A program made the position numbers and the translations under genes. A stretch of DNA of 64,000 nucleotides. It comes from Cenococcum geophilum 1.58. Taxonomy: Eukaryota; Ascomycota; Dothideomycetes; Gloniales; Gloniaceae. The notes under the pieces were generated by a model. It searched no databases. It was given only the letters and a program-made list of their open reading frames with translations, and had not been told where the DNA came from. Location: contig KV748248.1 of the NCBI GenBank assembly GCA_001692895.1, forward strand, positions 733,602-797,601, written 5' to 3'. This document shows, piece after piece, positions 1,339 to 46,700 of this stretch (its first letter is position 1; the number at the start of each line of letters is the position of its first letter).

Positions 1339-2358
1339 TAATAATAATAATAATTCTTTAATTAACGTCTAATACGGATACTATCTAGCCCCACGCAGAC
1401 TACTCCGTATATAAGGGAAAAGTAATATTAACGGGAAAAAACCCTTGCTGCTAGGGGGGAGGAAAAACCCTATAAGCCACCTCAGAAGAAAAAAAAACCC
1501 CAATTTGCCATATCCGTCCGTAGCGGCAGCCCTATAGGTCTACGGCTACGTCCTATTCTTCTTAAATATTCAAACTCCTTAAGAACTACTACTTCCTTTT
1601 CTAGCTTACCCTAGCTAGGGTTTACTACGTCCTAGCTAGGCCTTGCCAATTAATTACCGTACTGCTGTTTCCTATATCTTAGCTATCCCCTATATACTAT
1701 TTCTTGTTTAACTATTACTATATACGCCATGCCTTTCCCCCCCTAGGGCCTATTAAAGGCGTAAGGGGGATTTGTCCGTTCTAACTACCGTAATACTAAT
1801 AAGCGAGCGGGATATTATGTTATATTTAGGTATCTTTTATGCCTAAGCCCCAGCTAGGCCCTTTCTAAGGGTCACCACTCCATTAAAAAAAGATAGGAAA
1901 AACCGTGGGTTGTAATCTAGGCTGCTAGGTAATATTTAGCAGAAAAAACGGCGAGTGACCGTATACTCCGCGGGCGATCGCCCTAGGGGTTAGAAGGGGC
2001 CGTATATTTGCTTATTCATCTACTTATTTATTCGCGATCGCTCGTTCGTTAATATAAGAGGTCGTTAATGCTTTCTATTAGGGGTTAGGGGATGCTATTA
2101 AATACCGTATATCCACGTTGGATTATATAGGTGCCTTAATAGGAGAATAGCGTAGCTAAATTGTAGAGGGCCACAGTAGTAGTTTTCGAGATCTCACCAT
2201 CTAAAAAATTTTCACCACCGCCCATAACGCTCATAACCACGACCACTAGGTCCTATCGCACGCTATACAACATCTCTGCGTTAGCTCTAAGTCTGAACTT
2301 CGAAGACCTAGGTTCGTAGCCATCACCACGTACAGGTGCAGAGTCCGTTTTCGACGGC
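1339..2358 (-). mobile_element. Retroposon R1 (about 1.02 kb) with TAA-repeat tail and 17-bp target duplication
   Basis: The insert is bracketed by a perfect 17-bp direct repeat, TAGGTAATTTAATATAA, at 1322-1338 and 2359-2375. Its left end is a (TAA)n run followed by a segment near 1355-1410 that matches, with RIP-type changes, the 3' tail of R2, R3 and R4. Read on the minus strand it therefore ends in an (ATT)n tail. Long target duplications plus a simple-repeat tail are the hallmark of LINE-type target-primed reverse transcription. The body is fairly GC-rich at 1930-2358 and only partly RIP-mutated. I find no reverse transcriptase in it, so it is either a SINE-like element or a 5'-truncated LINE. 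Confidence 0.8.
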
Positions 2359-2375
2359 TAGGTAATTTAATATAA

Positions 2376-3028
2376 AAGAGCTAGTTAAAGATATTAAGCT
2401 TAATATAATTACTAATAACGTAGAGCGTCTTACTTTTATATTATAGAACTCTTTTCTACCCCTAGTTTAGTAGAGGACGTACACTAATTCCCGCGATATT
2501 ACCTCTTACTATAGTAATATCTTTATACTCTACACGATGCCTAAAAATATATAGACTCTTTAATTATATCTTAAGCTCTATACAGCTCTAAGTATCTATT
2601 ATATTATTTTACGTATAATACTATATAATAAAGTTAAGACATTATATAAGGAAAGAAGGTAAGGAAATAGGAAGGTAGGGTATATATTATTAACTTAGTT
2701 GCTTAGTTAATATATATACAAAGTAGAATAGGATTTAGGTAGCAGTCTTAGCAGAACTTAGTAAAATTTAGTAAACTTAGTAGAATATAGTAGAATATAG
2801 CAGATTGCTATCTTATAGTTAGTCTTCTAATTACTAAGTTAGTAGAAATAGGTAGATGTATATAAGGTGTTATGGGGATATCCTATAATAGTACCCCCCC
2901 TTTAAACTTAAGCTTCTATTAGATAGGGTTATAGTAGTTTTAGGTAGATTTTATAAAAGTCTTTTATAGCTTATATAAGTCCTATAGGGTTAGTGGGTTC
3001 CTATAAGGGCTTAGTAAAGCCTCTTTAT
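2376..3028. other. AT-rich DNA with a C-run next to the Gypsy nest; possible LTR-element end
   Basis: No gene is seen. A run of seven to eight Cs at about 2897-2905 preceded by TATAATAGTA resembles the polypurine tract and LTR junction of minus-strand element F (33670-33690). It could mark the 3' end of an older minus-strand LTR element whose remains continue after element B at 20989. This is an inference from one short motif. Confidence 0.3.
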
Positions 3029-3448
3029 TATTACAAACGCTTTAAGTACAATGTTATAACTACTTAGAGAAGAGTTAGAAGAAGCTAGTTGGTTAATATA
3101 AGCACGGTCTAGGATATAGCCAATAGAACTATATAACGAGGAATAGTAAGCAGAGTTACGTAACGTAATCTATATAATCTAGGTAATCTATAAGATTTAC
3201 TATAGAGCGAATAGAGTAGATAGAGTAGATAGAGCAACGACTTCTATAGAAGTACGGTTATGTATTTAAGGACCCTTAGTCCCTACCTAGATAGTTCTTT
3301 TCTTTATAGTAATTCTTAGAATATAATTAGAGTTAATCTGTTAGGTAACCACTCTACTAGTTATTATTACGTTGTTAACTTTGGCAGCACCTATATACCT
3401 AGCCTATTAATAAATCTACCGTAGTTTCTACTATAAGGTTCCGTTATA
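3029..3448 (+). repeat. 5' LTR of fossil B
   Basis: It is homologous to 20564-20983 along its whole length, including the B-specific middle part near 3165-3240. It starts with a TGTTAC-type end and closes with a CCGTTATA-type end, which are RIP-altered TG...CA termini. Confidence 0.88.
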
Positions 3449-4031
3449 TAATTACTACCATAGTTACAGTCTTAGAAGTTAAATAATATGCTACTAAAAG
3501 TAGCCACTATAACGCCGTTAACGGCAGCAACCACTTTAAGGTTAAGTGGAGATATAAGTATATAAGATACTAACTTACAACTAGTTACGGTTAGGCAGTT
3601 ATAGGAAATTGTTAATAGGTTAAACAAAAACAACTAAACACTTAAAGAAAGACTTAATAGAATTAGAGTAGTAAAGGTTAAGTTACCTTTAATTAAACGA
3701 TTTTTAGGAGATAAATTAAAGCTTAAAGGATTTCTTACATAAATGCATTTTAAAGTTATATAAGAAGGGGCTAAGTTAGCTACGTTAATAGATTAAATAG
3801 CCTACGCAGGATTGTTCTTAATAGGAAGGGCACTTAAATAGTTTAAACCCTACTTAATGGAAATATAGACTAATGGAATAACTACTACCAATTAAAAGGT
3901 ACGATTTGTGTTTTTTAGTTAGGTAGGATTTGCGGAACAATTAATATAGATATTTAGGGACCTAGAGGTAATAGTTATAGTAAAAAAAACTTTAGGACCT
4001 AATACAGCGAACCTTAGCAATTAAGTATATA

Positions 4032-4452
4032 TGTTACGGACGCTTTAAGCACAATGTTACGACTACTTGGAGAAGAGTCGGAAGAAGCTAGTTAGTTAAT
4101 ACAAGCACGGTCCAGAATAGAACCCGTGGAGCTATATAACGAGGAATGGTAACTAAGGTTATATAAGGTGCTACGAGAGAAACGCGAGAAACAAAAGGAA
4201 CTTACGTACCTTATATATAAGACGTACATTATATACAAGAAGGATTTTATAGGAGTACGGTTGTGTATTTAAGGACCCTTAGTTCCTACCTAGATAGTTC
4301 CTTCCTTATAGTGATTTTTAGAATACAATTAGAGTTAATCTATTAGGCAACTACTCCACTAGTTATTATTACGTTGTTAACTTACTTATAATATCTATAT
4401 ACCTCGCCTATTAACAAGTCTACCGTAGTTCCTACTATAAGGCTTTATTATA
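4032..4452 (+). repeat. 5' LTR of fossil A
   Basis: It pairs with 11632-12052, both 421 bp. It begins TGTTACGGACGC and its middle section, near 4150-4240, differs from the B-type LTR while both outer parts are alike. Confidence 0.93.
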
Positions 4453-7400
4453 CAATCACTACTAGGGTTACGGTTTTAATAAGTTGAACAATATGCTACT
4501 AAAAGCAGCCACTATAACGCTATTAACGGCGGCAACTACGTTAAGATTAGGTAACGACACTAGTATAGCAGATACTAACTTATAATAACCTATAACAGTA
4601 GGACAGTTATAAACAATAGTTAATCAGCTAATAGGAGATAATGCGGCACTTAAAAATAGAATTAATAGGATAGGAGTAGTAAAGGTTAAGTTACCATTAA
4701 TTAAAAGATTCTTAGGAGAGAGATTAAAGCTTAAAGGATTCCTTACGCAAATATACTTTAAAGTTGCGCAGGAAGGAGTAAAGCTAGTAATAACCATAGA
4801 TTAAGTAGTATATGCAGGATTGTTCTTATTAGGAAGAGCACTTAAATGGTTTAAGCCTTACCTCATAGAGATATAAGTAAATGGAATAATAATAACGAAC
4901 TAGGAAGTACGGTTTATATTTTTAAGCTAGAATAGATTTGTAGAGCGACTTATATAAATATTTAGGGACCTAGAAGCAACAACTATAGTAAAAAGAAAGC
5001 TTTAGGACCTAACATAACGGACTTTAGCAATTAAGTATATAACATAATTCTAAACGCTAGCGATATAACTCAAGTAGAATAATAAGGTGCTTATGGCATA
5101 GTACAAATAGGGACTTAAGGCTAAAGTCTAAGACGTAATTATTCTAATGGAAGATGTGGACACCCTAAGGGAATTAATAGATTAAGTAATTAAGATCAAC
5201 AATAGGATCTTCTAAAGGGAACAGGCTAAGAAGGGCTAGGACAGAGTTCTATAGTCGTATAAGGCGCAGAGTACGCAATAACCAAAGCCAAATTAAAAAC
5301 CATGGTATAGCGCAGAGCTAATAAACCTAAGTAGTACTAAAGAAGCCTATAAGAGATGGAGTAAGAAACTATAAAAACCTAGAGGTTAAGGATCTAGTAA
5401 TTATAGGACTAAGGAGCATAGGCTAAACTAGAAATCTTAGCAGCAGAAGACGTTTAGGCGGACTTTATAATAAAGTTAATAGTTTAGAGACGGAGCTTAC
5501 ATAAATTGCGGAAAATAGGGTTACTTCGCAAGAGATTATAAAGATAGTTAGAGTTACTATATAATAAAGGGAACTAGACTAGTAGTATATAACACATACG
5601 TATAGAGGGATAATAGTGTACTGCAAGGAACAAAAGAATATTTAATTAGAAGTTTTGCGTTTTGTTATAATAACATATACCGAATTTATAAAGACGCTAA
5701 GTATAGTATAAGCTATTAGCTATAAGAGCCAGAGTTAAAAGGACTTTAAGGAACCAAAGAGTTAGACGAAGAATAAGATCGACTCTATAAGCTAGATTAA
5801 GATATTATAATAACGTGCGGATAAAGATTAGTAACAATAATAATGGAGTTAGAGTACTTATTAATTAACAGTAACAAGGACAGTAAAGGAACTAACTAGG
5901 GGTATTTAGACCTCAACAGCGTAATAGAAGTAGAGACTAAGACCGCCATAGAGCAAGGTTTAGTAACGGGTATTATAACACCATTAGATACGGTATCTAT
6001 CGCTTTATAAGACGGAAGGAGTAATATCTAGAAACGATTAAGCAAGTAGACAACTGCTAGTACTAGCTTACTACTTAATAAAGGTAAAAGGCCAAAGGCT
6101 TGAGATTCTTAAGACGAGATAAGAGACGACCAAGATTCTTAAGACAAGATAAGGTAAGCTTAAAGACCCATAACAGATAGAAACCGATAGAGTAGAGTAG
6201 TAGCTTAGTTTAAAGACATATAAATAAGCTTAGGATAAGAATTCCCAACAGCATAAGACTCTTAAGATAAAATAAGTAAGATTTAGAACTCTTAAGAAGA
6301 GATGAGGACACTAGTTAAGCCTAGTTAGACTAAGGCGGGAGCTAAGCTTAAATTAGAAGTAAGCTTAGGATTAAAGAATCCAAGGGATTAAGAATTCGGA
6401 GTATAAATCAGGACACCTATAAGTAAGAAGTAAGAGGCTTCTTTATAGATTAGAAAATCTATAGCGCAAACAGTAATTAGACTAGGAGACAGATATATAG
6501 ACCTAGAAGACTTACTAGGGGAATATAGTGTTCGGCCTAAAGATTAAAAAGTTAATACTAAGATTAAGAAGCACGAAGACTTTAAGGATTTACTTATAAG
6601 ATGTGATATAAAGGAAACTATAGAGGAATTTAGGGCAAGAATTACCTTATAGCAAGAACAGAAACTAAACAAGAGATCTAGCATATTGGGATATACAAAG
6701 GACAGAGCACTAGTACGAAGAATTACTAATAGGCCTAGAATAGGCACACTAAGAGCTAAGTAGCTTACCAAACTGGAATAAGAAGAGGATTTAGGGATTC
6801 CTACTAGGTTCAAGGAACAATATACTAAAGGCTATTACGACGCAGTAATAAAGAAATATTTCCTTATAGACGAGCCGTATACACTTAAGTAGCTGTACTA
6901 AAAGTAGTATAGGCAACGACACAACAATAAGTAGGAAGATTTCTATATGTAGTTAAACAAAAAAGTTGTCTAAGACTACCCAATTATAAAAAAGGCTATA
7001 ACTTATATTAAGGGGGCCTTAATTATAACATTAAAAGATCTAAAGAAGTAATTAGAGGACTGGAGAAGCGAAAAATAAATCTTAGTACCCGCGAATAAAG
7101 TTACAACGCTTAAATTAACACGAGAGAGGTTTAAACTCTAGGACGAGGATGAGCTAAGAGTTAACCTAAGACATTAAGCATATTATACACTATCGTGGAT
7201 AGTATGCGTGGATAATGCGTGTAACATATATAAAGCACTAAAGGATAAAAATTAAAAGTATCTAATAAGGATGTATTGGATGACAAATAAGGCAAAATAT
7301 TAAAACGTTAAGTATATATATAATTGGTACCTAGTAGAAGTTTAAGAATAAAGGGACTTAACACTTTAACTAGGAAGATTCCTTACGGAAGAATGCCTAG

Positions 7401-12052: not shown

Positions 12053-14299
12053 ATATAACACAATTTTAAATATTTGCTATATAGGTTAAATGGAATAATA
12101 GAGCGCTTATAGCATAGTATAAATAGGGACTTAAGGCTAAAGTCTAGGACGTAATTATTCTAATAGAAGATATAGATACCCTTAGGGAATTAATAGATTA
12201 AGCGATTAAGATTAACAATAGGATCTTCTAAAGGGAATAGGCTAAGAAAGGCTAGGATAGAGTTCTATAGTTATATAAAATGTAGAGCATATAGCGACTA
12301 AAGCTAAATTAAAAACTATAGTATAGCGCAGAGCTAATAGACCTAAGTAGTACTAAAGAAACCCATAAAAGATAGGGAAAACAACTATAAAAACCTAGAA
12401 GTTAAGGATTAAGTAATTATAGGACTAAGGAGTATAGGCTAAACTAAGGATCTTATTAGCAGAAGACGTTTAAGCGAACTCTATAGTAAAAGTAATAGTT
12501 TAAAAACAGAGCTTATATAAATTACGGAAAATAGGGTTATTTTACTAAAGACTATAAAAGTGGTTAGAGTTACTATATAGTAAAGGAAACTAGACTAATA
12601 GTATACTGCAAGGAATAAAAGAGTGTTTAATTAAGAGCTTTGTGTTTTATTATAATAATATATACCAAATTTATAAAGACGCTAAGTATAGCGCAAGCTA
12701 TTGGCTATAAGAGCTAGAGTTAAAAGGGCTTAAAGGAACTAAAGAGTTAGACGAAGAATAAGATCGACTCTATAAGCTAGATTAAGATATTATAATAACG
12801 TGCGGATAAAGATTAGTAATAATAATAATGGAGTTAGAGTACTTATTAATTAATAGTAATAAGGATAAAAAAGAAACTAACTAGGGGTATCTAAACCTTA
12901 ATAACGTAATAGAAGTAGAGACTAAAACCACTATAGAGCAAGGTTTAGTAACGGGTATTATAATACCGTTAAATACGGCATCTATTTCTTTATAAGATAG
13001 AAGGAGTAATATTTAGAGACAATTAAGTAAGTAGACAACTGCTAGTGCTAGCTTACTACTTAAAAAAGGTAAAAGGCTAAAGGCTTAAGATTCTTAAGAT
13101 AAGATAAGAGATAACTAAGATTCTTAAGACAAGATAAGGTATGCTTAAGAACCTATAATAAATAATAACTAATAGAGCAGAGTAATAGCTTAATTTAGTA
13201 ATATACAAATAAGTTTAGGACAAAGTTTCCTAAAGGCATAAGATTCTTAAGACGAGATAAGTAAGATTTAAGACTTTTAAGATAAGATAAGAACACTAAT
13301 AAAGCCTAGTTAGACTAAGGCTAGAGCGCAGCTTAAGAAAGAAGTAAGCTTAGGATTAAAGAATCTAAGGGACTAAGAATTTGGAGTATAAATAAGGACA
13401 CCTATAAATAAGAAGTAAATGGCTTCGCTATAGATTAGAGAATCTATAGCGTAAATAGTAACTAGACTAGGAGACAGATATATAGACCTAGAGGACTTAC
13501 TAGTAGAACACGTTATTTAGACTAAAGATCGGAAAGTTAATACTATAATTAAGAAGTAAGAAGGCTTTAAGGATTTACTTATAAGGTAAGTACCTAAAGA
13601 AACTATAACCAAATTTAGAATAAGAATCTTAGTATAGTAGAAACTAGACAGAGAATCTAGTATACTAGGTTGTATATAAGATAAAGCACTAGTATAAAGA
13701 ATTACTAATAGACTAAGAGTAGGTATATTAAGAGCTAAGTAGCTTACTAAACTGGAAAATAAAGAGGATTTAGGAATCTTAACTAGGTTTAAAGAACGAT
13801 ATATAAAGGGCTGTTATAATATAGTAATAAAAAGATACTTTCTTATGGATAAGCCGTATATACTTTAATAGCTGTACTAAAAGTAGTATAGACAAAGATA
13901 TAATAATAAATAGGAAGATTTCTATATATAGTTAGACAAGAGAGTTATTTAGGACTACCCTATTATAGAAAAAGTAATGAATTATATTAAGGAAGCCTTA
14001 ATTATAATATTAAAGGATCTAGAGGAACAATTAGAGGACTAAAGAAGTAAAAGGCGCATCTTAGTACCTATAAATAAAGNTATAACGTTTAGATTAGCGC
14101 GATAAAGGTTTAAACTTAAGGATAAAGATAAGTTAAGAGTTAACCTAAAGCACCTAGCGCACCATACGCTATTATAGATCGTATATATAGACAATATATG
14201 CGAAATGCACAAAAACCCAAAAGAAAATAATTAGAACATCGGGAAAATATTCGCAGGATAAGATTTAAGTAGACTTTAATTTTCGCGTTTCGCGTAATT

Positions 14300-14600
14300 A
14301 ACATGCAATTTGACCAACTCGACACGCAATTAACCAACTTGACACGCGATTAACCAACTTAACACATTCAAAAGTTAAGCGACACGCAGTTAACCTATTT
14401 AACAACTTTAAAAGCTAACTGCATATTCCTTAACACGCAGTTAACCTACTTAATAACTTTAAAAGCTAACTATATATTCCTTAACACGCAGTTAACCTAC
14501 TTAACATATTTAAAAGTTAAATAACACACAGTTAACCTACTTGACAACTTTAAAAGCTAACTACATATTTCTTAACATGCGATTAAGGTAAAGTTATATG
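14300..14600 (+). repeat. Array a of S1: AT-rich GTTAACCTACTTAAC-type unit
   Basis: Tandem copies of a roughly 20-bp motif, partly combined into longer units with AACTTTAAAAGCTAAC. The reverse-complement array in S2 (27440-27890) has a cleaner 41-bp dimer built of a 20-bp and a 21-bp half. Confidence 0.8.
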
Positions 14601-14689
14601 CTATATATTTAACTATTATATATAATCTTATATAATCTTATATAATCTTATACAATCTTATACAATCTTATAGTCTTATTACTTAAAGG

Positions 14690-15090
14690 CTCTGCACGAA
14701 GCTCTGCATAAAGCTCTACACAAAGCTCTACACGAAGCTCTACACGAAGCTCTACACGAAGCTCTACACGAAGCTCTACACGAAGCTCTACACGAAGCTC
14801 TACACGAAGCTCTACACGAAGCTCTATACGAAGCTCTACACGAAGCTCTACACGAAGCTCTACACGAAGCTCTACACGAAGCTCTACACGAAGCTCTACA
14901 CGAAGCTCTACACGAAGCTCTACACGAAGCTCTATACGAAGCTCTACACGAAGCTCTACACAAAGCTCTACACGAAGCTCTACACGAAGCTCTACACGAA
15001 GCTCTACACGAAGCTCTATACGAAGCTCTACGTACAGAGGCTCTGCACAAGGCCTCTGCGCGAAGCTCTGCGTACGGAGGCTCTACACGA
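14690..15090 (+). repeat. Array c of S1: 12-bp minisatellite GCTCTACACGAA
   Basis: About 30 head-to-tail copies of a 12-bp unit, many identical, with C/T variants. The homologous array is at 26960-27355 in S2 and 22700-24110 in S3. Because 12 is a multiple of three, it creates long apparent reading frames on both strands, which are artefacts. Confidence 0.95.
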
Positions 15091-15184
15091 AGCTCTGCAT
15101 CGGGTCCCGCTATATTCCCGATAGCCTCTACACGTGTCTCTGCCTATGTAGCCGCCTTATTTTTTACTTCCTTCTTCCTTACAT

Positions 15185-15202
15185 CCTCCCTACCTAGGGA
15201 GG
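15185..15202. repeat. Hairpin palindrome at the c-d array junction of S1
   Basis: CCTCCCTACCTAGGGAGG has an 8-bp perfect stem and a 2-nt centre. The same palindrome, with GG at its centre, sits at the matching place in S2 (26870-26887), and a decayed form is in S3 near 22577-22590. Conservation in the spacer suggests a common ancestor and perhaps a function in DNA or RNA folding. Confidence 0.8.
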
Positions 15203-15224
15203 CACTAGAACGGCAGCCAGCAGA

Positions 15225-15575
15225 GGACCGTTGCTAGAACTAGATGACTATCGCTAAAACCAGACGACCGTCGCCAGAACTGGACGACCGTTACCAGAAC
15301 CAGACGACCGTCGCCAGAGCCAGACGACCGTCGCTAGAGCCAGACGACCGTCGCTAGAGCCAGACGACCGTCGCCAGAACCAGACGACCGTCTCCAGAGT
15401 CAGACGACTGTCGCTAAAACCAGACGACCGTTGCCAGAGCCAGACAACCGTCGCCAGAACCAGACGACCGTTACTAGAGCCAGACGACCGTTACCAGAAC
15501 TAGATAACCGTCGCCAGAACCAGACGACCGTCGCCAGAACCAGACAACTGTTGCCAGAGCCAGACGACAACGACT
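15225..15575 (+). repeat. Array d of S1: 20-bp minisatellite CAGACGACCGTCGCCAGAAC
   Basis: About 17-19 tandem units with C/T and G/A variants between copies. The core GACGACCGTC is nearly self-complementary. Homologous arrays lie at 26010-26860 (S2, about 850 bp) and 22376-22510 (S3), so copy number differs greatly. Confidence 0.93.
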
Positions 15576-15639
15576 AGCCAGCGAACACTATAAACGATTC
15601 GATCGATTGATCGAATCAAGGTAGCATAGACAGGTAGGC

Positions 15640-15840
15640 ACAAACAGGGAGATGCTGACGGGTAGGTAGATGTAGATAGGTAGGTAGATATAGACAGGTA
15701 AGCAGATGCAGACAGGCAAGCAGATGCAGACAGGTAGGTAAATGCTGACGGGTAGGTAGATATAGATAGGTAGGCAGATGTAAATAGGTAGGCGATGCAG
15801 ACAGGTAGGCAATGCAGACAGGTAGGCGATGCAGGCAGGT
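15640..15840 (+). repeat. Array e of S1: about 18-bp unit rich in TAGG/CAGG tetramers
   Basis: Tandem units of the form TAGGTAGATATAGACAGG. Homologues on the other strand are at 25540-25950 (S2), 22012-22262 (S3) and in the unmutated fragment at 43225-43330. Confidence 0.9.
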
Positions 15841-18800
15841 AGGTAAGTTAATAGGTAAATAGGTAGAAGAGAACCATTGCTATATTATATTAAATTATCT
15901 AAAATAATATTTATTTTACTAGCCTTTTAAATAGCTTTAAAGTAGCTTTTATTTATTTAAAATATGCTATTAGTATAAAAGAGGTAAATATAATTGTGGT
16001 TGCCAAATGCGCAAATTGCTGGCAGGTTACGCGCAGGTTGCGCGCAGGCTGCGCGCAGGCTGCGTGTCAAAAAAACACGACATAGGCTAGTCGGTCGAGT
16101 TGCTAAATGACCTCAACTGCGCGCCAATTGCGTCAACCACCAACCATTAAGGCCATTGAAAGGGTACTATATTTTGCCGATGAAATACCCTATAAGGATA
16201 TATTAGGCGCTAGATAAGCAATAGTATAGAAATGCTAAGTATATACACGGCTAGTATTTAGTAGAAGTTTAGGAGTTAGGAGACTTAATACTTTAACTAA
16301 AAAGATTCCTTATGGAAAAATGCTTAGATGGAAGACAGTGGTGGGAATGCCTAGAAAATATATATCTATAGTATATTAAGGATAAAAAGCAAACTAGGTA
16401 TTAGTTAAAGGATAAACTAAGCGCATAAGGATTTAGTAGCTAATAGTTAGGAAAAGTAGAGGCCTATAAAACTAGAGGGAGCTAGTAGTAGAGCCTTAAA
16501 CCCTTAAAGGAATTTAAGGACGACACCTAAATCTATAAGTTAAATGGTAAGATTAGCAGTTTAAAGTATTAGTAGATAGTAGAGTAATAAGAAACCATAT
16601 CTTACCAATAGTAGTTAAAAGGATAGGGCTACCACATAGATAAAAGAAGCACCCTTATCTATTAGTAATAATTTTAGGAGATCCAATAGCCTATAGAGGA
16701 GGCATTATTAATCTTAAAATAGGACCTATTTAGATAACCATTAAAGGAAGATAAGTTAAGATGTCTTTTAATATATTACCATTAGGGAACGATAAGGCAG
16801 TACTAGAAATGCCTTAGTTATAGGAATATAATCTAAAGATCGATTGGATTATAGGTTAGGTTAATATTAGAAATACTTAACGCCGTAAGACGCGATAATA
16901 AACTAAGATAGTATAGTACTAAGTAGGGGCAACCTACGAAAAAATAAATAAAGGACTAAGTTATGTACTAAAGAGATACTATAAGTATAGCAAAAGACTA
17001 TGGTTACCAGAAAGTGAAAAGCTGTTAGTATATACAGTATGGGACTATAAGATAGAATTAGAACTAGGAATAAGTTTAAGGTTTTTTCTAATTTATAAGC
17101 TTACTAAAGAAGAAGGGAGAGCACTAAAAGAGTTTATCTAGGAGAACTTACAAAAGGGATATATTAGACTATTACAGTTATTAGTAGGATATCTAGTACT
17201 GTTCGTACTAAAGAAAAATAGAAAACTTAGACTATGCATTAACTATAAATAGTTAAATAGCATTACTAGAAAGGATAGGTATTCTTTACCCTTAATTAGC
17301 AAGATTTAGAATAGAATTGGTAATACGTAAATCTTTACGAAGATAGATTTAAGATAGGCGTACTATTAGATTAAGATTAAGAAAGGCGATAAATAGAAGG
17401 CAGCCTTTAGGTTAAAGGAAGGACTATATAAACTATTAGTTATGCAGTTCGGACTTATAAATGTACTAGCAACGTTTTAGAAACGTATTAACAATATATT
17501 AAGAGAATATTTAGATAAATTTGTTATAGTATATCTTAATAACATTATTATCTACTTAATAAGTAAGGAAGAGTATAGAAAATACGTTAAATGGGTTTTA
17601 AAGAGACTATACGAAGAATAGATGCTAGTAGTAATTAAGAAATGCGAATTCTTTACTAAGAAGATAGATTTTATAGGATTTATTATTAAACTAGGCTAAC
17701 TTAGTATAGATCTAAAAAAGATTAAGGCTATAGTAAATTGGCAGGAACTAGAGAATGTTATATAGTTAAGGTTATTTCTAGGGGTTTGTAATTACTATAA
17801 AAGGTTTATAACTTAATAGTTAAAGAATATCAAGCTATTTATAAGGTTAATAAAGAAAGAAGAACCTTAGGTATAGGGAGAAGAATAAAGGAAACTATTT
17901 AAGGAGGTTAAGGAGTTGTTTACTTAGAACCTAATCCTTAAAATCTACCAACTAAAACTAGAGATAGTGGTCGAAATAGATATATTAGACTTTGCACTAG
18001 GGGTGTGCTTCCTATAGAAATATAAAGATGGATAGCACCTAGTAGCATACTATAGTTGGAAGATAATACTACTAGAATTAAACTATGACATCTACAACAA
18101 GGAGTTATTAGGTATAGTTATAGCACTTTAGGAGTAAAGAGCATTCTTATAAGGTATAGAGAAACTATTTATGGTTAAAACGGATTATAAGAACCTAATA
18201 GGGTTCCTAATAATAAAAGAACTTAATTAAAGATAAGTTAGATAGGTAGAAATGCTTACGGAATACTACTTTAAGATTTAGTATACTAAAGGTATAGATA
18301 ATACGCGAGTAAACGCTCTAAGTAGAAAGGCTAAACTATAGAACAATAAAAAGCCATTAGGGGCTTTACTGCGAAAAGACATAAATGGATTAATTAGATA
18401 TAATTATCTAAAAATTGTAGTAATAGGAGAAATTAGTTAAACCTATAAGTTACTAGAGAGCAAATAGTTATAAAAAATCTAAGACGTATAGGCAGAGGAT
18501 CTAAGCTTAGAGTAGTATAAGAACTAAAAAGTAATATACGTGCTAAGGAGCATTATAAGAGAATTTATTAAGTTATTCTATAAGGGACTAACTTAAGGAC
18601 ATAATAGAGCTATAGGCTTAGTGTTAAGACTCTAGGAAGAATATATTATTAATAAAATCTAGGGACTAGTAAGATAAGTTACTAAGGAATATCTAGATTG
18701 CTAAAGAAATAAACTAATAAGGTATAGGCCGTATAGAGGGCTACAACCTATTAAAATACTAGAAAGACTATAGGAAGTTATATTATAGGACTTTATTATA

Positions 18801-20983: not shown

Positions 20984-22011
20984 TCTATCCTATAAAGTAT
21001 ATATATAAGTATTTCTATTTATTATACTTAATATTATTAATTCTTTTAATAAAGTACTTATTCTTACTATCTACTTTAACTAGTAGGGGCGGGTCCTATA
21101 TTTATTTAGGCAAGGCGTTTAATATAGGTGTAGTAGGGTAGAAAACTAACGTAGAGAATATAGGGTAGAGAACTAACGTATAGAATATAGGGTAGATTTT
21201 AACCGTATTAGGGAGCTTTAGTTAATAGGCGTAAGAGAAGACAACCTTCTCGGCCTTATAAGGGCTAGTGTTCTTCTAATTAAGCTTCTTAATAGGTTGT
21301 TTTATATTTATATTTCTTATATCTAGCTAATAAAATTACTAATTTAATAGGCTAGTACTAGGGTTTAGTCCTTATTTGCTACGGCTTTATATATAGATTA
21401 AGCCTATATTATTTTATTAGTAAGGAGCTATTATAGTTCCTCTATCTATTTAATTGGCTCTCTTATATTACTTAGATTACCTATTAGTAGTATTATTTTT
21501 TAAACTTTAGCTTTTAGTCCCCTTCCATTCTGCGCTATTAATACCCCTTAGTTTTACTTAGTCTACGCTACTACATCAGGAAATTTTTTTTCGGGCTCGT
21601 TGTTGCAGTTTACGGCAATTTGCGGCAAACTGTACGGTCGCGGCAGTCGTATATGGTCTTGTGCGGTTTGCGCATTTTGCGGCAAACTGCACAGAGCCTA
21701 TGTATTTTGCAGCAACTTGCAGCAAACTACACAGAGCCTACGCATTTTATAGCAACTCGCAGCAAACGCGCAGAGCCTGTATATTTTACACGTTTTATAT
21801 ATTTTATATATTTTATATATTTTGCACATTTTACACATTTTATACATTTTATATTTTGCATATTTTATATTCCTATATAACTATATAAAATGTAGAGCTA
21901 TTTATTAAGCAATTAAGATAAGGGGGATACCCTTTACAAAGGCTCCAAATCATTAATTAGCGGTATTCCTAACGATCTGCTGGCTGTGTACCGATTTCCT
22001 AACTAGGCCTA

Positions 22012-22262
22012 GTGCCTGCCTGCCTGCCTGCCTGCCTACCTGTCTGTCTGTCTGTCTGTACCTGCCTATGCCTACCTATCCTATGCCTACTGTCTATGCC
22101 CTACTATCTGTGCCTACCCTGTCTATGCCTACTGTCTGTGCCTACCTGTCTGTACCTACCTATCTGTGCTACCTGTCTATTGCCTACCTGTCTATACCTA
22201 ACGTCTGTGCCTACCATCTGTGCCTCCATATCTGTGCTACTGTCTATGCCTACCTGTCTGTA
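22012..22262 (+). repeat. Array e of S3: CTGCCTGCCTACCTGTCTG-type repeats
   Basis: Tandem tetramer-based units of CCTGCCTACCTGTCTGTG type. The 80 bp before it (21930-22010) match the unmutated fragment at 43150-43227 with C-to-T and G-to-A changes. Confidence 0.9.
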
Positions 22263-22375
22263 ATTTGGGAAAGGTTCGGCCCGATCGAAGGCTCCGCCTG
22301 ATTTAATTAATCGATTAATCGTATTAATTCGAATCGTTCTCTACGGCCGTTCGCTGGCTGTATATTCGAACGGGT

Positions 22376-22510
22376 TGGTCGTCTGGCTCTGGCGCGACGG
22401 TCAACAGTCGTCTGGTTCTGGCGACGGTCGACGGTCGTCTGGTTCTGGCGACGACGTCGTCGACGGTCGACGTCTGGTCTTGCGCTGGCGGCCGACGGTC
22501 GCCTACGGTC
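22376..22510 (+). repeat. Array d of S3: GACGGTCGTCTGGTTCTGGC-type repeats
   Basis: A short array of the 20-bp unit on the opposite strand to S1. It is less regular and much shorter than in S2. Confidence 0.85.
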
Positions 22511-22699
22511 GTCTAGGAAGGTCTAACTTTATGGCTGACCTGCATTCTCGTCCTCTCCGCTCTACCGTTCTGCAGCTCCCTAGGTAGAGCGTAGGAAGTG
22601 GGTAAGGATCAGAGGAGAGGGTGGAGATCTCGGAAGAAGATAAGGTGGACCATAGCTCTAGGCTTAGGTGCTTATCAGATACGAATTAAGCGGGGACAC

Positions 22700-24110
22700 C
22701 TTGGTGCAGAGGCACGTGTAGAGGCTAGCGAGGAATGTAGCGGCGACCGTGCAAGAGCCTTCGTGCAGAGCCTCCGTATGTAGCGCAAAGGCCTTCGTGC
22801 AAGAGCTTCAGTACGTAGAGCTTCGTGATGAGAGCTTACGTGACTGGCAGAGCTTTGCGTGTGAGCCTCCGTATGTAGAGAGTCGCCTGCTAGACCTTGC
22901 AGAGCTTCTGTAGTGAGCTTCGTGTAGAGCGGTAGAGCTTCGTGCAGAGCTTCGTGTAGAGCCTCATGCAGAGCCTTGTGCAAAGCTTCGTGTAGAAGCT
23001 TCGTGTAGAGCCCTCGCGCAAAGCTTCGTGCAGAGCATTTGTGTAGAGCTTCGTGTAGAGCTTCGTGCAGAGCTTCGTGTAGAGCTTCGTGCAGAGGCCT
23101 CGTGTAGAGCTTCTTGCAGAGCCTCGTACAGAGCCTCTGTACGCAAGAGCTTCTGTATAGAGCCTCGTGTAGAGCCTCGTGCAAAGCTTTGTGCAGAGCT
23201 TCGTGTAGAGCTTCGTGCAGAGCTTCGTGTAGAGCTTCGCGTGCAGAGCTTCGTGTAGAGCTTCGTGTAGAGCTTTCGTGGTAGAGCTTCGTGCAGAGCC
23301 TCGTGTAGAGCTTCGTGCAGAGCCTCGTACAGAGCCTCTATACGCAGAGCTTCGTATAGAGCTTCGTGCAGAGCCTTCGTGCAGAGCTTCGTGTAGAGCG
23401 CACTCATGCAGAGCCTTGTGGCAAAAGCTTCGTGTAGAGCTTCGTGTAGAGCCCTCGCGCAAAGCTTCGTGCAGAGCTTTGTGTAGAGCTTCGTGTAGAG
23501 CTTCGTGTAGAGCTTTCGTGTAGAGCTTTATGCAAAGCTTCGTGGCAGAGCTTCGTGTAAGAGCTTCGTTGCAGAGAGCCTCGTGTAGAGCTTCGTGTAG
23601 AGCTTTATGCAGAGCTTCGTGTAGAGCCTTCGTGTAGAGAGCTTCGCGTAGGGGAGCTTCGTGTAGAGCTTCGTGTAGAGCTTCTTCGTGTAGAGGCTTC
23701 GTGTAGAGCTTCGTGTTAGAGAGCCTCGTGTATAGAGCTTCGCGGCACAAAGCTTCGTGTAGAGGTTGTAGAAAAGCGCTCCTGCTGATAGAGCTTCGTG
23801 CAGAAGCCTTCGTTGCTAAAGCTTTCGTGTAGAAAGCTTCGTGCAAAGCTTCGTGTAGAGCTTCCGTGCAAAGCTTCGTGTAAGAGCTTCGTGCAGAGCC
23901 TCGTGTAGAGCTTCGTGCAAAGCTTCGTGTAGAGCTTCGTGCAGAGCTCGTGTAGAGCTTCGTGCAGAGCCTCGTCGTGCAGAGCTTCGTGCAGAGCTTC
24001 GTGTAGAGCTTTGTGCAGAGCCTCGTGCAGAGCTTCGTGCAGAGCTTCGTGTAGAGCTTTGTGCAGAGCTTCGTGCAGAGCTTTGTGTAGAGCTTCGTGT
24101 AGAGCTTTAT
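22700..24110 (+). repeat. Array c of S3: 12-bp unit AGAGCTTCGTGT, about 1.4 kb
   Basis: More than 100 tandem copies with small insertions and C/T variants such as TGCAG versus TGTAG. It is the longest of the three c arrays. The apparent proteins of 147-318 aa on both strands, with repeating HEAL, TKLC or ELRV motifs, come from the repeat itself. Confidence 0.95.
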
Positions 24111-25539
24111 AGTATTTTTGTTGCGTTTTTATTGCAGCCGAAAAATTAGGGTCTACTTAAGTCGCAATTTGCGGCGATTTATATGGGTAGCCTATGTATT
24201 TGTAGCAAATCGCCGCAAGTTGCCGCAAATCGCTAAAATCGCGACTTACGCAGGTTTTGCAGACCCCGATTTTCGCTTGCGACAACGTGCCCAAAAAAAA
24301 ATTTCCTGATGTAGTATCTAAAACTATGTTATATAGTCTATTACTAACCCTTTTTATATAAGTTAATATAGCTTTTCTTTAGCTATTGCTATTAATTCTA
24401 GATCTCTATATATTTATATTAGTCTACTAGTAAATCCTTCCTAGCTTAAGAATATATACTATACTTCTAAATTAGTAGTTACTAACCTATTAGCTTATAT
24501 CTCTATAAGATAGGGTTTAAACTACTCTAGTACCTAACCTGTTAAGAATAGTTCTCTATACGCTCCTAAATCTAATAAGTTTGCTAGCTTAGTTCCTTTA
24601 TATTAAATCTTTGGCTTTATTTATATAAGGAATCCCTTTAGCTTATACTTTTCTTCTATAAACCTCTTAATTAATAGCATCTTTATTACGGACCTTATAT
24701 TAGTAGTAGTATAACTACTAAGAAGAGATATAAATAGGTTGGTTAAAATAGTATATGGGGCGCTAGAACCGATTAAGCTATAGGATAAAAGGTAGCTAGG
24801 TTATATAACAAGTTATAAGGAACTTAGTATGTAAGCATATAAGAGTATAAGTACGCGTAATATACTAATATACTAACGTATTAATGTACCTAACGAATCT
24901 TTTAGGAGTTAGATTGTGTATTTAAAGGACTATAGTCCCTACATTAGATAGTTCTCTTCTTTATAGTAAATTTTTAGAATATAATTAGGGTTAACTAATT
25001 AGGCAACTTACTCCACTTATTATAGCTATTAATTATTCTATTCTATCTATCTACCTAGCCTATTAATAAGCCTATTATAGTATTAACCTTAGGGTTAGGA
25101 GATACTAGTATATAGGATAATAACTTATAAATAGTTATAATAGTATAACTTAAGAGCTTTATAGAATAAGTAGATAATAACTAAGTGTATTGGCAAAATA
25201 TGGTACCCTTTCAATGGCCTTAATGGTTGGTAGTTGACGCAATTAGCGCGTAGTTGAGGTCATTTGGCAACTTGACCGACTAGCCTATGTCGTGTTTTTT
25301 TGACACGCAGCCTGCGCGCAGCCTGCGCGCAACCTATACGTAACCTACGCGCAACCTACCAGCAATCTGCGCATTTAGCAACCATAATTATATTTACCTC
25401 TTTTATACTAATAGCATATTTTAAATAAATAAAAGCTATTTTAAAGCTATTTATAAGGCTAGCAAAATAAATATTATTATTTTAGATAATTTAATATAAT
25501 ATAGCGATGGTTCTCTTCTACCTATTTACTATACCTATT

Positions 25540-25950
25540 AACTTACCTACCTACCTATATTGCCTACCTATCTGTATCTACCTACCTATTTACATTGCCT
25601 ACCTATCTACATCTACCTATCTGCATTTACTTACCTATCTGCATTTACCTACTTATCTATATTTACCTACCTATTAATATCTACCTACCTATCTATATCT
25701 GCTTACCTGTCTATATCTACTTACCTATCTATATCTACCTACCTATCTATATTTACTTATTTATATCTACCTACCTATTTATATTTACCTACCTATTAGC
25801 ATCTACCTACCTATTCTATATCTGCTTGCCTATCTATATCTACTTACCTATCTATATCTACCTACCTATCTATATTTACCTTACCTGTCTATATCTACCT
25901 ACCTATCTATATCTACCTACCTATTAGCATTTACCTATTTATGCCTACCT
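25540..25950 (+). repeat. Array e of S2: about 18-bp unit CTACCTACCTATCTATAT
   Basis: About 20 tandem units, AT-shifted relative to S3 and to the unmutated copy at 43225-43330, as expected from RIP-type change. Confidence 0.9.
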
Positions 25951-26009
25951 ATCTATACTACCTTAATTCAATTAAATTGATTAAATCGTTTATAGTGTTA
26001 GCTGGCTAG

Positions 26010-26860
26010 TCGTTATCGTTTTGGCTCTAGCGACGGTCGTCCTAGTTCTAGTAACGGTTGTTTAGCTCTAGTAACCGGTTATCTAGTAATGGTCGTCTAG
26101 CTAGTAACGATCGTCTGGTTCTAGCGACGGTTGTCTAGTTCTAGCAACGGTCGTCTAGTTCTAGCGACGGTCGTCTAGCTTTAGCAATAGTTATTTATTC
26201 TGGTAACGGTCGTCTAGCTAGCGACGGTTATCTAGTTCTGGTAATGGTTGTCTAGCGCTAGCAACGGTTGTCTATTCTGGCGACGGTTGTCTAGCTCTAG
26301 TAATAGTTGTCTAGCGCTGGTAACAATCGTCTGGTTCTGGCGACGGTCGTCTAGGCTCTAGTAATGGTTTATTCTAGTTCTAGTAACGGTCGTCTAGCTG
26401 GCGACGGTCGTCTGGTTCTAGCGACGATCGTCTAGTTCTGGCGACGGTTGTCTAGTTCTGGCAACGGTCGTCTGGCTCTAGCAACGGTCGTCTAGTTCTA
26501 GTAACGGTCGTCTAGCTGGCGACGGTTGTCTAGTTCTTGGCGACGGTCGTCTGGGGCTAGGCAAACGGTCGTCTAGTTCTGGGCGACGGTCGTCTGGCTC
26601 TGGCAACGGTCGTCCTAGTTCTAGTACGGTGCGTCTAGCTAGCGACGGTCGTCTAGTTCTAGTAACGGTCGTCTAGCTAGCAACGGTCGTCTGGTTTTGG
26701 CGACAGTCGTCTGGTTCTGGTGATAGTCGTCTAGTTCTGGCGACAGTTGTCTGGTTTTGGCGACGGTTGTCTAGCTGGCAATGGTTGTCTAGTTCTGGTA
26801 ACGGTTATCTGGTTCTAGCGACGGTCGTCTAGTTCTAGTAATGGTCCTCTACTAGCTGCC
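26010..26860 (+). repeat. Array d of S2: 20-bp unit CGACGGTCGTCTGGTTCTGG
   Basis: About 40 tandem units with many C/T and G/A variants. It is more than twice as long as the S1 array and six times the S3 array. Confidence 0.93.
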
Positions 26861-26959
26861 GTTTTGGTGCCTCCCTAGGTAGGGAGGATATAAAGAAGGA
26901 AGAAAGGGTAAAAAATAAGGTGGTTATATAGGGTAGAGGCACGTGTAGAGGCTATTAGG

Positions 26960-27355
26960 AATATAGCGGGGACCTGATGCAGAGCTTCGTGTAGAGCCTC
27001 TGTACGCAGAGCTTCGCGCAGAGCCTCGTGCAGAGCCTCTGTACGCAGAGCTTCTCGTAGAGCCTCGTGCAGAGCCTCTGTACGTAGAGCTTCGCGTAGA
27101 GCCTCGCGTAGAGCCTCGTGTAGAGCCTTGTGTAGAGCTTCGTGCAGAGCTTCGTGCAGAGCTTCGTGCAGAGCTTCGTGCAGAGCTTTGTGCAGAGCNT
27201 CGTGCAGAGCCTCTGTACGTAGAGCTTCGTGTAGAGCCTCGTGAAGAGCCTTATGCGAAGCTTCGTGCAGAGCTTTGTGTAGAGCCTTTATGCGCAGAGC
27301 TTCGTGCAGAGCCTCTGTATGTAGAGCTTCGTGTAGAGCCTTATGCAGAGCCTCC
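26960..27355 (+). repeat. Array c of S2: 12-bp unit AGAGCTTCGTGC
   Basis: About 30 tandem units, with CTCTGTACGCAG variants interspersed. One N lies at 27199. Confidence 0.93.
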
Positions 27356-27439
27356 AAGTAATAAGACTATAAGATTGTATGAGATTGTATNAGATTNTAT
27401 AAGATTGTATAGGATTATATATAATAGTTAAATATATAG

Positions 27440-27890
27440 TATATAACTTTACCTTAATCGCACGTTAAGAAATATACAGTTAGCTTTTAAAGTTGTTAAG
27501 TAGGTTAACTACATATTAAGTTAGTTAAATTATATATTAAGTAGGTTAATTGCGTGTTAAGTTAGTTAAATTATATATTAAGTAGGTCAACTACATATCG
27601 AGTTAGTTAAATTATATGTTAAGTAGGTTAACTGCGTATTGAGTTAATTAAATTATATATTAAGTAGGTTAACTGCGTATTAAGTTAGTTAAATTATATG
27701 TTAAGTAGGTTAACTGCGTGTTAAGTTAGTTAAATTATATATTAAGTAGGTCAACTGCGTATTAAGTTGGTTAAATTATATGTTAAGTAGGTTAACTGCG
27801 TATTAAGTTAGTCAAATTGTATATTAAGTTGGTTAATTGCGTGTTAAGTTAGTCAATTACGTGTCGAGTTGGTTAAATTGCATGTTAATT
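27440..27890 (+). repeat. Array a of S2: 41-bp dimeric unit
   Basis: Alternating 20-bp TTAAGTAGGTTAACTGCGTG and 21-bp TTAAGTTAGTTAAATTATAT(G) halves give a 41-bp higher-order repeat of about ten copies. Confidence 0.88.
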
Positions 27891-28275
27891 ACGCGAAACG
27901 CGAAAACCAAAGTCTACTTAAATCTTATCCTGCGAATATTTTCCCGATGTGGCATTAATTAAATAGTTATAAGATATAAAAAGAGAAAAGATAAAGATGC
28001 TATTAATTAAAAGGTTTATAGGTAAGAAGTATAAACTTAAGGGATTCCTAATATAGATAGATTTAAAGATTTAATATAATGGAACTAAGTTAGCGTAATT
28101 AAGTAATTAAGTAGCATAAATAGGACTGTTCTCAATAGGTTAGGCGCTAGAGTGGTTTAAACCCTATCTTATAGAGATATAAGTAAATAGGTTAGTAACT
28201 ACTAATTTAGAAGCACGGTATATATTCTTAAGCTAGGAAGGATTTACTAGTAGACTAATATAGATATAGTAAACT

Positions 28276-43079: not shown

Positions 43080-43430
43080 ATCGGTGTAAAGGATAGGGCC
43101 CTACGATCGCTCGGGCGATCGATTAAGGAGATAGGGGGGAGCCTCTCGCGGAGGCTCCAAATCGTCGATTGGCGGTGTCCCCGACGATCCGCCGGCCGTG
43201 TGCTGATTTCCTAACTAGGCCTAATGCCTGCCTGCCTGTCCTGCCTACCTGCCCGTCCTACCTGTCCTGCCTGTCCTACCTGTCCGCGACTACCTGTCCG
43301 TGCCTACCTATCTATGCCTACCTGTCTGTATCTATCTATGGTGTCTAATTCAATTCGGGGGAGAGGTCGGCCCGATCAAAGGCTCTAATTGATACGATTC
43401 GATTCGGTGACGGACTAATATCGAGGCCCG
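43080..43430 (+). repeat. Unmutated fragment of the S-element core (module g plus array e)
   Basis: 43150-43227 matches S3 at 21935-22012, and array e (43225-43330) and the following GGTCGGCCCGATCAAAGGCT stretch match 22012-22300. All CpA/CpG sites remain, so this is the least mutated copy of these parts in the window. Two perfect hairpins precede it: CGATCGC-TCGG-GCGATCG (about 43103-43120) and GGAGCCTC-TCGCG-GAGGCTCC (43138-43158). No TIRs were found around it. It lies between PB1 and the RNA polymerase I gene. Confidence 0.75.
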
Positions 43431-43735: not shown

Positions 43736-46700
43736 TCATGGCTCAATCTTAAACCGCATCTTCACACCCATACTGGCCAATTCGACATCCAAATACCGCA
43801 GCACACCCGGCACCGCCACAACCGCGATATCGTCCCCGCCCGTCCACCTGACCCCCTGCCCATCCTCCCACGTCTCGCTGCGGCCCTCAAACCCCTCGGC
43901 GCGCCTCGCACAGCGGCGACACCGCGTGATCCCCGTGCCACGCTTGCTCCTTCCGTACTCGCCGACCGTCGGCGTGGTGCTTAAGAAGCTGCCACACTTG
44001 CGGCACACGCGCGCACGCGTATAGTCAGAGCAGTTCATGAGGCGGTCCTGCAGCAGGAACGCGGTGCCGTGGGCGAGCAGGGCGTCGCGCTCCATCTCGC
44101 CCACGCGGATGCCTCCGCCCTTCTTGCGCCCCTTAATGGGCTGGCCCGTCAGCGAGTTGACGGGGCCCGTGGTGCGGACCTGGAACTTGTCGTTGACCAT
44201 GTGGCGCAGGCGCTGGTAATACACGACGCCGATGTAGATGTCCGCGGCGAGTTCCTGGCCCGTGATGCCGCTGTACATGGGTTCGTTGCCGTAGTAGTTG
44301 TAGCCGGCCTTCATGAGTTGGTGGCCGAAGTAGTCGACGGCGGTGTGCTGCTCGTCGAAGCGGAAGGGCGTGCTGTCCTGCGCGAGGCCGTGCAGAGCCC
44401 CCGCCTTGCCCGCTAGGCTCTCGACGAACATGCCGATGGTCATGCGCGAGGGAAAGGCGTGCGGGTTGATGATGACGTCGGGCTGGATCCCGCTCTCGCT
44501 GAACGGCATGTCGACCGCCGGCCATTTCTGCGAGCACACGCCCTTCTGACCGTGCCGGGACGAGAACTTGTCGCCGATGACGGGCGAGCGCGGGACGCGC
44601 AGCTTGACGCTGATGCTCTGGCACGGCTCGCTGCCGCTCTCGGCGCCGAGGATGCGCACCTCCTCGACGAAGGCGACCTCGTCGTCCTTGTACTTGAAGA
44701 AGTGCGTCTGGCCGTCGCGGTTGATGTATTCGCCGGTGGCCGGGTCGAAGGACACGGTATGATACGCGGCCAGGATGTCGTCCTTGCGCACCTCCATGCC
44801 CAGCTGCGGCCAGCCGTCGTCGTCCAGCTTCTCGCGCCACTCGGCCCGCACCAGCCCTCCCGGCGCGAACCCGAACAGCTTGCCGATCTGCCGTGATGAC
44901 CGTGCGCGCCGGCTGCCCTCCTCCAGGTCGCAAAGCTTTGTCTTGTAGATCGTGCCGTGACCGAAGCCGCGCTCGTGCGCTGACTTGTTTAGGATCATGG
45001 CGTCGTCCATATCGTAGCCTGTGTACGAGATGACGGCTACGATGGCGTTCATGCCGTTCGGGAAGTTGTCGAGCCCGTATTCGTTGTGCAGCGGTGGCCG
45101 CACCACTGGGGTCTGGCCCGTCTGTAAACGGTACGTCTTGTTGTCAGTGCGGTAGCGGTGTGCTGCTCCGGGTGTTCCCATCGACTGTTTGCCCATCTGG
45201 CATTGATACATGTTTCGGGGAGATTGGTTGAAGTCTGAGAAAGGAGTCATGTTCGCGATAATGGAGAGGATGTTCGTTGGGTCGTATTCTACGTGAGTCG
45301 AGTCCCCTGAAACGATTTCAGGTTCCGTGCAAGCGATGGACATAAAAGGCTGCTCGAAGGGCCCAACAAAGTCTAGCTTGTCAAGGGGTAGATATTTCAC
45401 CGGTCTGTACATGCGTGCAGACTGTGAAAACATGTAGACACCGGGATACTGGCCGCTATTGGAGTTTGGAACGTACCCGACCTCCAGTTCCAGCGGGACG
45501 TTGTGAGTGTCTTCGACCTTCCAGTATCGCAAGGTATCCCCGATGACCCTAGCTTGTTTCGGTGAGCAGAAGCCCAGAATCCGGCCATCGAGCTGCACCA
45601 CCACACTTTCTTGGAGAGATGCCGATGCTATGCTTGTCACGCCTAGTTGAGCCACAAGGCCTGGGATTGCCGAGACATCCACGTTATGAGTAGCTATCTT
45701 ACACTTGTGCGCAAGGTGATTTAGCAATCCACAGGGACTACCATCAGGGGTGTGCACTGGACATAAAAAGCCCCAACTTTCAGGCAGCAACTTTCTCACA
45801 GTTGTCGTCTTCAATTGGGCGAAGAAGCTACCTCTGTGAACCATTCGGAAGTGACTTATAAATCGGTAGAAGTTGATTTTCTCTGCCACAACCGTGAAAC
45901 CGGAGGTTTGTTGAAGATCCAGTCCACTCGGGCTGACGAGGTTTCCAGTAGATAGGAAATATTCCAAGGCTTGTCCAATGTTCTCGTTAGTTTTACGGAG
46001 AATCTTTGGCTGGAAATCTTTCATGAATTCCGGTGATGTGAACGGGGCCCAACTACTTCTTCGACACCATTCCATTAATGGAAGTCGTAATGAGTTCAGC
46101 CATTCGTCCAGTCTCTCCTTCAGTATCATGCCGTAAAGGAATCCACCAAGCAGAATTTCTTGATTCTGGACAGCGTCAGGATTGTCAACCGCACATTCGC
46201 CTTCTACCAGAGCGTAGAGTTTCCGGGTCATGAATAATAGCATTTTGAATTTGTCGGCATTTTGGCTGTCTGAGACATTATCGACGCCTAAGTGAGGAAG
46301 CACAATTCGCCGGAGGAACTCGGTGCCTGCGTCTTCATCGCTCATATCCTCTGGAACTTGCAAGACGACCTTAAACTTGCCACCCAAGTACGCTCTTGTC
46401 TTCGCTTTCCCATGTAAGCCATATGCTTTGTAAGTCCGGAGGAGCAGTTCCACCCGATCCGTCACGAATTGCTTGTCTTCGAGTCCTTTCGAACCAGCAG
46501 CACCAACTAAACCCTCGAAAATTTCTCGGTCGTTCGTCTCCACGAGTGCTTTGAGGACCATCATAACCGGCACCAAGTATTCGTTTTTCCTCCAGGAGAA
46601 CCGGAACGTGACGTTACCGTCGTTGAGGTAGTGTAGAACATTTGTCTGCGATGTCTGATCTGGACGGACTGACCGCATCTGGACGCCGAACTTGGAGTAT

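Follow-up and report, generated by a model that had tools for sequence, protein, structure and literature searches.

Minisatellite-stacked elements of Cenococcum geophilum as probable non-autonomous Plavaka-type transposons

A 64,000-nucleotide stretch of the Cenococcum geophilum 1.58 genome (GenBank assembly GCA_001692895.1, contig KV748248.1, positions 733,602 to 797,601; hereafter the window, on contig C73 in our numbering) contains two elements, S1 and S2, in which six tandem arrays (A, B, C, D, F and H) are stacked between short inverted ends, termed the G-end (beside array A) and the C-end (beside array H). These elements and their relatives are very probably (roughly 0.88 in our estimate) non-autonomous cut-and-paste transposons of the Plavaka type (CMCT clade), moved in trans, whose coding middle has been replaced by a minisatellite core. 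The observations behind this conclusion are the ends and their pairing, 2-bp target duplications, empty sites, the array order, and large elements carrying the same two ends together with a Plavaka domain. Three array types, A (41/20-bp units), B (10 bp) and H (11 bp), belong to the Plavaka ends, and C, D and F form a separate core. A first-pass annotation, made from the letters of the window alone, had treated the six arrays as of equal standing and the elements as outside the known kinds. Neither view is supported, the second because the ends, the duplication length and a transposase-bearing partner tie S1 and S2 to Plavaka.

Shared ends, target duplications and a Plavaka-bearing partner

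The genome (177.2-Mb assembly, 162 contigs) gave 123 scored matches (266 candidates) to the Plavaka domain PF18759, and 14 control genomes gave none. Four of these (on contigs C111, C26, C10 and C3) started 2.99–3.10 kb from an intact G-end, all in one orientation, the distances being taken by eye among the matches listed. For a fifth match, on C4, the position of the G-end was predicted from that distance and then found (C4:3843051). The C-end of this element lay at 3823054, giving a length of 19,998 bp with AA on both sides. The larger, transposase-encoding relative with the same ends that the first-pass annotation had proposed to look for was thus found, with a broken PF18759 domain.

The three of the first four copies that were read (C26, C10 and C111) were 90–91% identical to one another, and their homology stopped within 6 bp of the terminal repeat. 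Their last ~530–580 bp matched the G-ends of S1 and S2, arrays A and B included, and the last 83–85 bp were 96% identical to S1. On the opposite side, the C-end interiors of three loci without the stack (L096, L098 and L008) were 89–92% identical over 1.1–1.5 kb and matched the stack elements over the outer ~320 bp only. Both S1-type ends were seen on one Plavaka-bearing element (C4), the G-end also on C26, C10 and C111, and the C-end also on L096, L098 and L008. As expected of a non-autonomous derivative, the stack elements thus have both of their ends in common with an element of this genome that bears a transposase domain. In L089 the Plavaka domain scored 5.5e-44 when read with X at stops. 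Separately, the best Plavaka match in the genome (C30:1712561-1713541; 230 bits, with 1 TAG and 4 TAA inside) was not linked in this analysis to S1- or S3-type ends (S3 is described below).

The S1/S2 family comprises hundreds of end copies in this 177-Mb Dothideomycete genome. Genome-wide, 404 sites fitted a 31-base G-end pattern (≤3 mismatches) and 289 a 29-base C-end pattern, compared with 1 and 0 sites, respectively, in backward-read controls. Copy counts were taken from these longer patterns only, as a 14-base end with 1 mismatch showed no excess (507 + 513 sites versus 601 + 609 in the control). The ends recurred as pairs, with exact ends forming at least 25 convergent pairs within ~8 kb (contigs C1–C5). 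Twenty of these listed pairs (contigs C1–C4) were retrieved and, together with S1 and S2, made up 22 elements. An exact 2-bp target duplication flanked 22/22 bounded copies (TA 8, AA 6, CA 4, AT 2, AG 2; lone or broken ends were left out of the count), and in 14/22 it was not TA, in agreement with the 2-bp, non-TA duplication first described for S1 and S2.

To look for empty sites, we joined the two flanks of each of 23 elements, retaining a single copy of the duplication, and compared the result with the window and the loci retrieved. A match across the junction was obtained for 7/23. Three were clear and gap-free: L066 (300 bp, 86%), L069 (295 bp, 87%) and L072 (300 bp, 84%). The S1 site was also gap-free (281 bp at 74%, 296 bp at 71%); this match is old and the bases immediately left of the junction are poorly conserved. 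The match for L061 was gap-free, but covered only 103 bp (82%), and that for L076 had one gap. These empty sites argue against the elements having been duplicated together with their flanks, and so against S1 and S2 having arisen by one segmental duplication.

S1-type elements were 1740–3456 bp long, a range that omits two recognised nested inserts (L063, L068) and a short form (L077) and whose longest member, L079, may hold an insert too. The short forms L077 (515 bp) and L003 (564 bp) had the family ends and H units and lacked the stack; in L003 one base of one end was altered. Larger convergent pairs were considered as autonomous elements and are better read as nested insertions (L063, L068, L027, L024 and C4:827538-845411), the inserts having been labelled by eye. 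L063 holds, at 2066-6866 of the oriented element, a ~4.8-kb insert that we take to be tyrosine-recombinase-like, with a Crypton-like frame; the insert in L068 carries its own inverted ends, and L068 was rejected as an autonomous parent. The long, mostly open frame nested in L027, from 100 bp inside the C-end, is presumably a pogo/Fot1-like transposase, and L024 presumably represents a Copia insert at one lone end. C4:827538-845411 is a TA-flanked stack element containing ~16 kb of additional DNA.

Array structure within and between elements

The shared ends of S1 and S2, their 2-bp duplications (AA and TG) and the identical order of six arrays in oppositely oriented elements were confirmed by sequence and by Tandem Repeats Finder (TRF) (Table 1). 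Two parts of the first-pass description held only partly. The G-end is intact in both elements and the C-end of S2 has two changes; and the elements, said to be built only of stacked minisatellites, are largely arrays, with unique subterminal and linker DNA remaining between them. The inverted repeat is only ~14 bp long and the arrays at the two ends are unlike each other. The reported lack of coding sequence stood, as no recognisable gene was present: a six-frame Pfam scan gave no match in S2 and six weak matches in S1 (DUF445 and five more), which were discarded as they were all under the curated cut-offs and all within the 12-bp array frame. No Plavaka match was found in the six frames of either element.

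Table 1 Features of S1, S2 and S3 in the window (position 1 is the first letter of the 64,000-nucleotide stretch).
Feature	Position	Strand	Remarks
S1 target duplication, left copy AA	14235..14236	.	
S1 whole element	14237..16182	+	G-end first
S1 G-end CATCGGGAAAATATTCGC	14237..14254	+	
S1 array A, 20/40/51-bp units	14301..14577	+	present too at G-end of large Plavaka elements
S1 array B, 10 bp (TATATAATCT)	14619..14672	+	present too at G-end of large Plavaka elements
S1 array C, 12 bp (GCTCTACACGAA)	14689..15096	+	core
S1 array D, 20 bp (CAGACGACCGTCGCCAGAAC)	15221..15568	+	core
S1 array F, 18 bp (AGGTAGATGCAGACAGGT)	15646..15845	+	core
S1 array H, 11 bp (GCAGGTTGCGC)	16022..16064	+	present too at C-end of large Plavaka elements
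S1 C-end CATCGGCAAAATAT	16169..16182	-	
S1 target duplication, right copy AA	16183..16184	.	
S3	21574..24311	-	ends CATCAGGAAATTTTTTTT, TA/TA flanks; C-, D-, F-type arrays, same order
S3 F-type array (4/14 bp)	22013..22261	-	TRF
S3 D-type array (27 bp)	22378..22456	-	TRF
S3 C-type 12-bp array	22898..24107	-	TRF
S2 target duplication, left copy TG	25186..25187	.	
S2 whole element	25188..27949	-	G-end at right
S2 C-end TATTGGCAAAATAT	25188..25201	+	two changes vs S1 C-end
S2 array H	25303..25359	-	TRF
S2 array F	25544..25963	-	TRF
S2 array D	26026..26851	-	TRF
S2 array C	26978..27351	-	TRF
S2 array B	27368..27421	-	TRF
S2 array A, 41-bp unit	27496..27853	-	TRF
S2 G-end	27936..27949	-	unaltered
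S2 target duplication, right copy TG	27950..27951	.	

Conservation of array order extended across the family. Arrays A, C, D, F and H occurred in the same order in 20/20 assessable elements (the 22 elements minus L077, the short form, and L078, which contains 1636 bases of N). At the threshold used, array B had no match in 5/20 elements and a few misplaced matches in 2 more, and one shuffled S2 control yielded zero array units. We then compared unit likeness within and between elements holding at least 5 units (L077 and L078 excluded; 200 shuffles). For array C (19 elements), within-element likeness was 0.875 versus 0.868 between elements, and 56/200 shuffles reached the within-element value. 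For arrays D and F (20 elements each), the values were 0.796 versus 0.789 and 0.758 versus 0.730, respectively, and 0/200 shuffles reached the within-element values. The within-element excess for D and F is small, which makes a simple model of rapid array turnover less convincing. Since units resemble each other scarcely more within an element than across elements, the arrays seem to have acquired most of their structure before the elements spread.

The stack elements also stood apart in base composition, with a GC content of 0.41–0.50 versus about 0.29–0.32 in their flanks. TA/AT was raised within their arrays as well (2.42 in the S1 core), so these values do not establish escape from repeat-induced point mutation (RIP).

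S3 and the competing explanations

A second family with a related core is represented in the window by S3. Its ends, CATCAGG..CCTGATG, fit the PlavakaB termini CATCA..TGATG, and exact 18-base ends of this type numbered 277 in the genome (1 in the backward-read control). In four S3-type copies the target duplication was 2 bp in three (TA, TA and AC) and 4 bp (CTAG) in L087. A comparison of coordinates among the matches listed gave no clear case of a Plavaka partner for S3: one match lay 466 bp outside an S3 copy on C53, and another, at C3:5664946, was 16 kb inward from an S3 end. In a second set of Plavaka copies the match was split near profile positions 168/194, the pieces lying ~0.1 kb apart (C53:962878-963282 and 963386-963790). 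An intron or a frame change would give such a split, and these copies are a possible S3 partner. Elsewhere in the window, a piece resembling the S3 interior (43150-43385; 78% over 186 bp) with a CCTGCC-type array and no recognised ends lies beside an RNA polymerase I gene. The latter is a 1070-amino-acid frame (43736-46948) matching second-largest subunits; its best match was a metagenome protein (97%), its best named match Lepidopterella palustris (88%), and the other named top matches were mostly Dothideomycetes.

The related core of S3 makes it possible, at a little under even odds, that the GC-rich core is a cassette which entered both the S1-type and the S3-type Plavaka ends by insertion or exchange. 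The C-, D- and F-type arrays stand in common order in S1 and S3, and the D|C linkers of S3 and S2 aligned with a score of 55 against a maximum of 27 in 300 shuffles; the terminal regions of S3 and the S1-type elements were not alike (23, below the shuffle maximum of 25). However, the likeness of the F|D linker was weak (25 against 22 in shuffles), at the thresholds used only one D and two F units of S3 matched those of the S1 type, and descent from one ancestor, with divergence of the ends and retention of the core, would look the same. The core may have passed from one end type to the other, or the ends may have diverged while the core was kept. A more elaborate version, which we consider unlikely, is that a GC-rich cassette of three minisatellites (12-, 20- and 18-bp units or their relatives) was acquired by both end types and outlasted the coding parents under RIP-type decay because short, length-variable units are a poor RIP substrate; such a cassette would act as filler under selection, keeping non-autonomous elements sufficiently long or intact for movement.

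It is quite unlikely that the stack arose from a Plavaka parent by simple internal deletion, with the C, D and F arrays still present in the parent's unread middle. About 5 kb of that middle is covered by no copy read, which leaves room for them, but homology with the parent extends only as far as array B from the G-end and ~320 bp inward from the C-end. No C-, D- or F-type array was found in 9.3–9.7 kb from the G-end of C10 and C26, in 4.8 kb of C111 or in 5.5 kb from the C-end of C4; C26 held one stray C-like and one stray F-like unit, and L008 and L098 had no C, D or F units. The related core of S3, despite its different ends, also speaks against a simple deletion. To judge from these sequences, the stack elements look like two Plavaka ends around a foreign or newly grown GC-rich core.

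Movement by a different transposase that makes a 2-bp duplication (a relaxed Tc1/mariner/pogo or a PHIS-type enzyme), with the Plavaka link reflecting shared ancestry of the ends only, appears very improbable. Other DNA transposons, so labelled by eye, are present here as nested insertions and TA is the commonest duplication (8/22), but the majority of duplications (14/22) are not TA, and no such transposase was seen between S1-type ends in the elements read, save as a nested insert. An identity with ISL2EU (PHIS) was dropped, as it needs an AT duplication and GG ends and here AT made up 2/22 and the ends are CATC; the accessible portion of PMC4482050 describes ISL2EU with AT duplications and mostly GG ends, from animals only. 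Array-rich DNA can spread via recombination, but a single segmental duplication or a dispersed satellite can be discarded as an explanation of S1 and S2: it is contradicted by 22/22 exact duplications, by the empty sites and by copies that stop at an identical base although their flanks differ.

Under the Plavaka-type reading, the transposase of the large elements would recognise the common terminal repeat CATCGGSAAAATAT and probably also bind the adjacent subterminal arrays, A and B at the G-end and H at the C-end. It would then excise the element and insert it at a staggered 2-bp cut, acting in trans on S1 and S2. The parental coding middle, from an element of ~20 kb in the single two-sided copy, would have been replaced by the GC-rich C, D and F core, which could have arisen by capture followed by gain and loss of units during repair or replication.

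Several observations weigh against this reading. None of the transposase copies seen with these ends was intact, and the domains contained many stops (1 TGA, 8 TAG and 7 TAA in C111), so no active source can be demonstrated today. These stops were mostly TAG and TAA, the pattern that RIP of CpA would leave. Both boundaries were established for one large element only (C4). Its G-end repeat carries one change, the reading of this copy covered 5.5 kb inward from the C-end and the final 0.35 kb but not the 14 kb between them, and nested inserts could add to its length. In the large-element frames, Pfam gave only Plavaka and no other family (six frames of L093 and L099, three forward frames of L089 and of part of L035, and three reverse frames of L095). 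Apart from the single stray units in C26, the core did not occur in the stretches of the large elements covered by reading, so S1 and S2 are not a simple internal deletion of those parts. The ends of S1 and S2 are CATCGG, not CATCA. Finally, the empty-site matches of L079 and one of those of S1 have 9–16 gaps, and no empty site was found for S2 or S3 in the window and the loci retrieved.

Relation to described elements and implications

Among described systems, PlavakaB is closest in its ends, with 2–3-bp duplications and CATCA..TGATG termini in the accessible part of PMC12730594. S1 and S2 resemble it in their short inverted ends starting CATC, 2-bp duplication and fungal host, and in having a large partner with PF18759; they differ in lacking a recognisable gene and in their CATCGG..CCGATG ends and minisatellite middle. 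The Plavaka group encodes a transposase to which S1 and S2 show no match, that domain being carried by the large same-end partners. The same portion of that source names Plavaka families from Agaricomycotina, whereas the host here is a Dothideomycete, and gives CACTA/EnSpm ends as CAC..GTG, in contrast to CATC here; the 2-bp duplication falls inside the 2–4-bp CMC range and differs from the 3 bp of EnSpm. Plant CACTA elements with a captured satellite (PMC8978399, accessible part) belong to a related clade and likewise have repeats near their ends and an internal satellite array, but carry CACTA ends and a single captured array near the 3′ end, as opposed to three core and three end arrays in fixed order.

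Tetris of Drosophila virilis, as far as the available text of PMC4079207 goes, is also non-autonomous, rich in tandem repeats and thought to be mobilised by an autonomous element. It differs in being a foldback element with ~220-bp repeats inside long inverted repeats and 8–10-bp duplications; Foldback elements are marked by tandem repeats in long inverted repeats, and S1 and S2 have an inverted repeat of ~14 bp. Two miniature inverted-repeat transposable elements (MITEs), miDNA4 of Xenopus tropicalis (PMC9659126) and a minisatellite MITE of Porphyromonas gingivalis (PMC4596501), share the non-coding structure with terminal inverted repeats and an internal array, but in the portions of these papers available have a single array and belong to other superfamilies. 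MITE size is given as about 400 bp (PMC9659126, in part) versus 1740–3456 bp here; the short forms L077 and L003 would fit. In the literature searched, mostly open papers with few subscription ones and in their accessible parts, no ordered six-array stack or such a non-autonomous Plavaka element was described.

In the literature searched, Plavaka is little described, half of the papers listed being by title on basidiomycetes. Here a Dothideomycete with a 178-Mb genome, for which L. palustris is a close relative (PMC5023957, accessible part), carries a ~20-kb Plavaka element together with gene-free derivatives, and an unusual family of gene-free elements gains a likely Plavaka parent. The arrays that form part of the transposon ends, which the transposase may read, can here be distinguished from arrays that are simply carried along. 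RIP escape of arrays becomes testable by comparing copies, and the family illustrates how hundreds of composite minisatellite loci can stem from a transposon.

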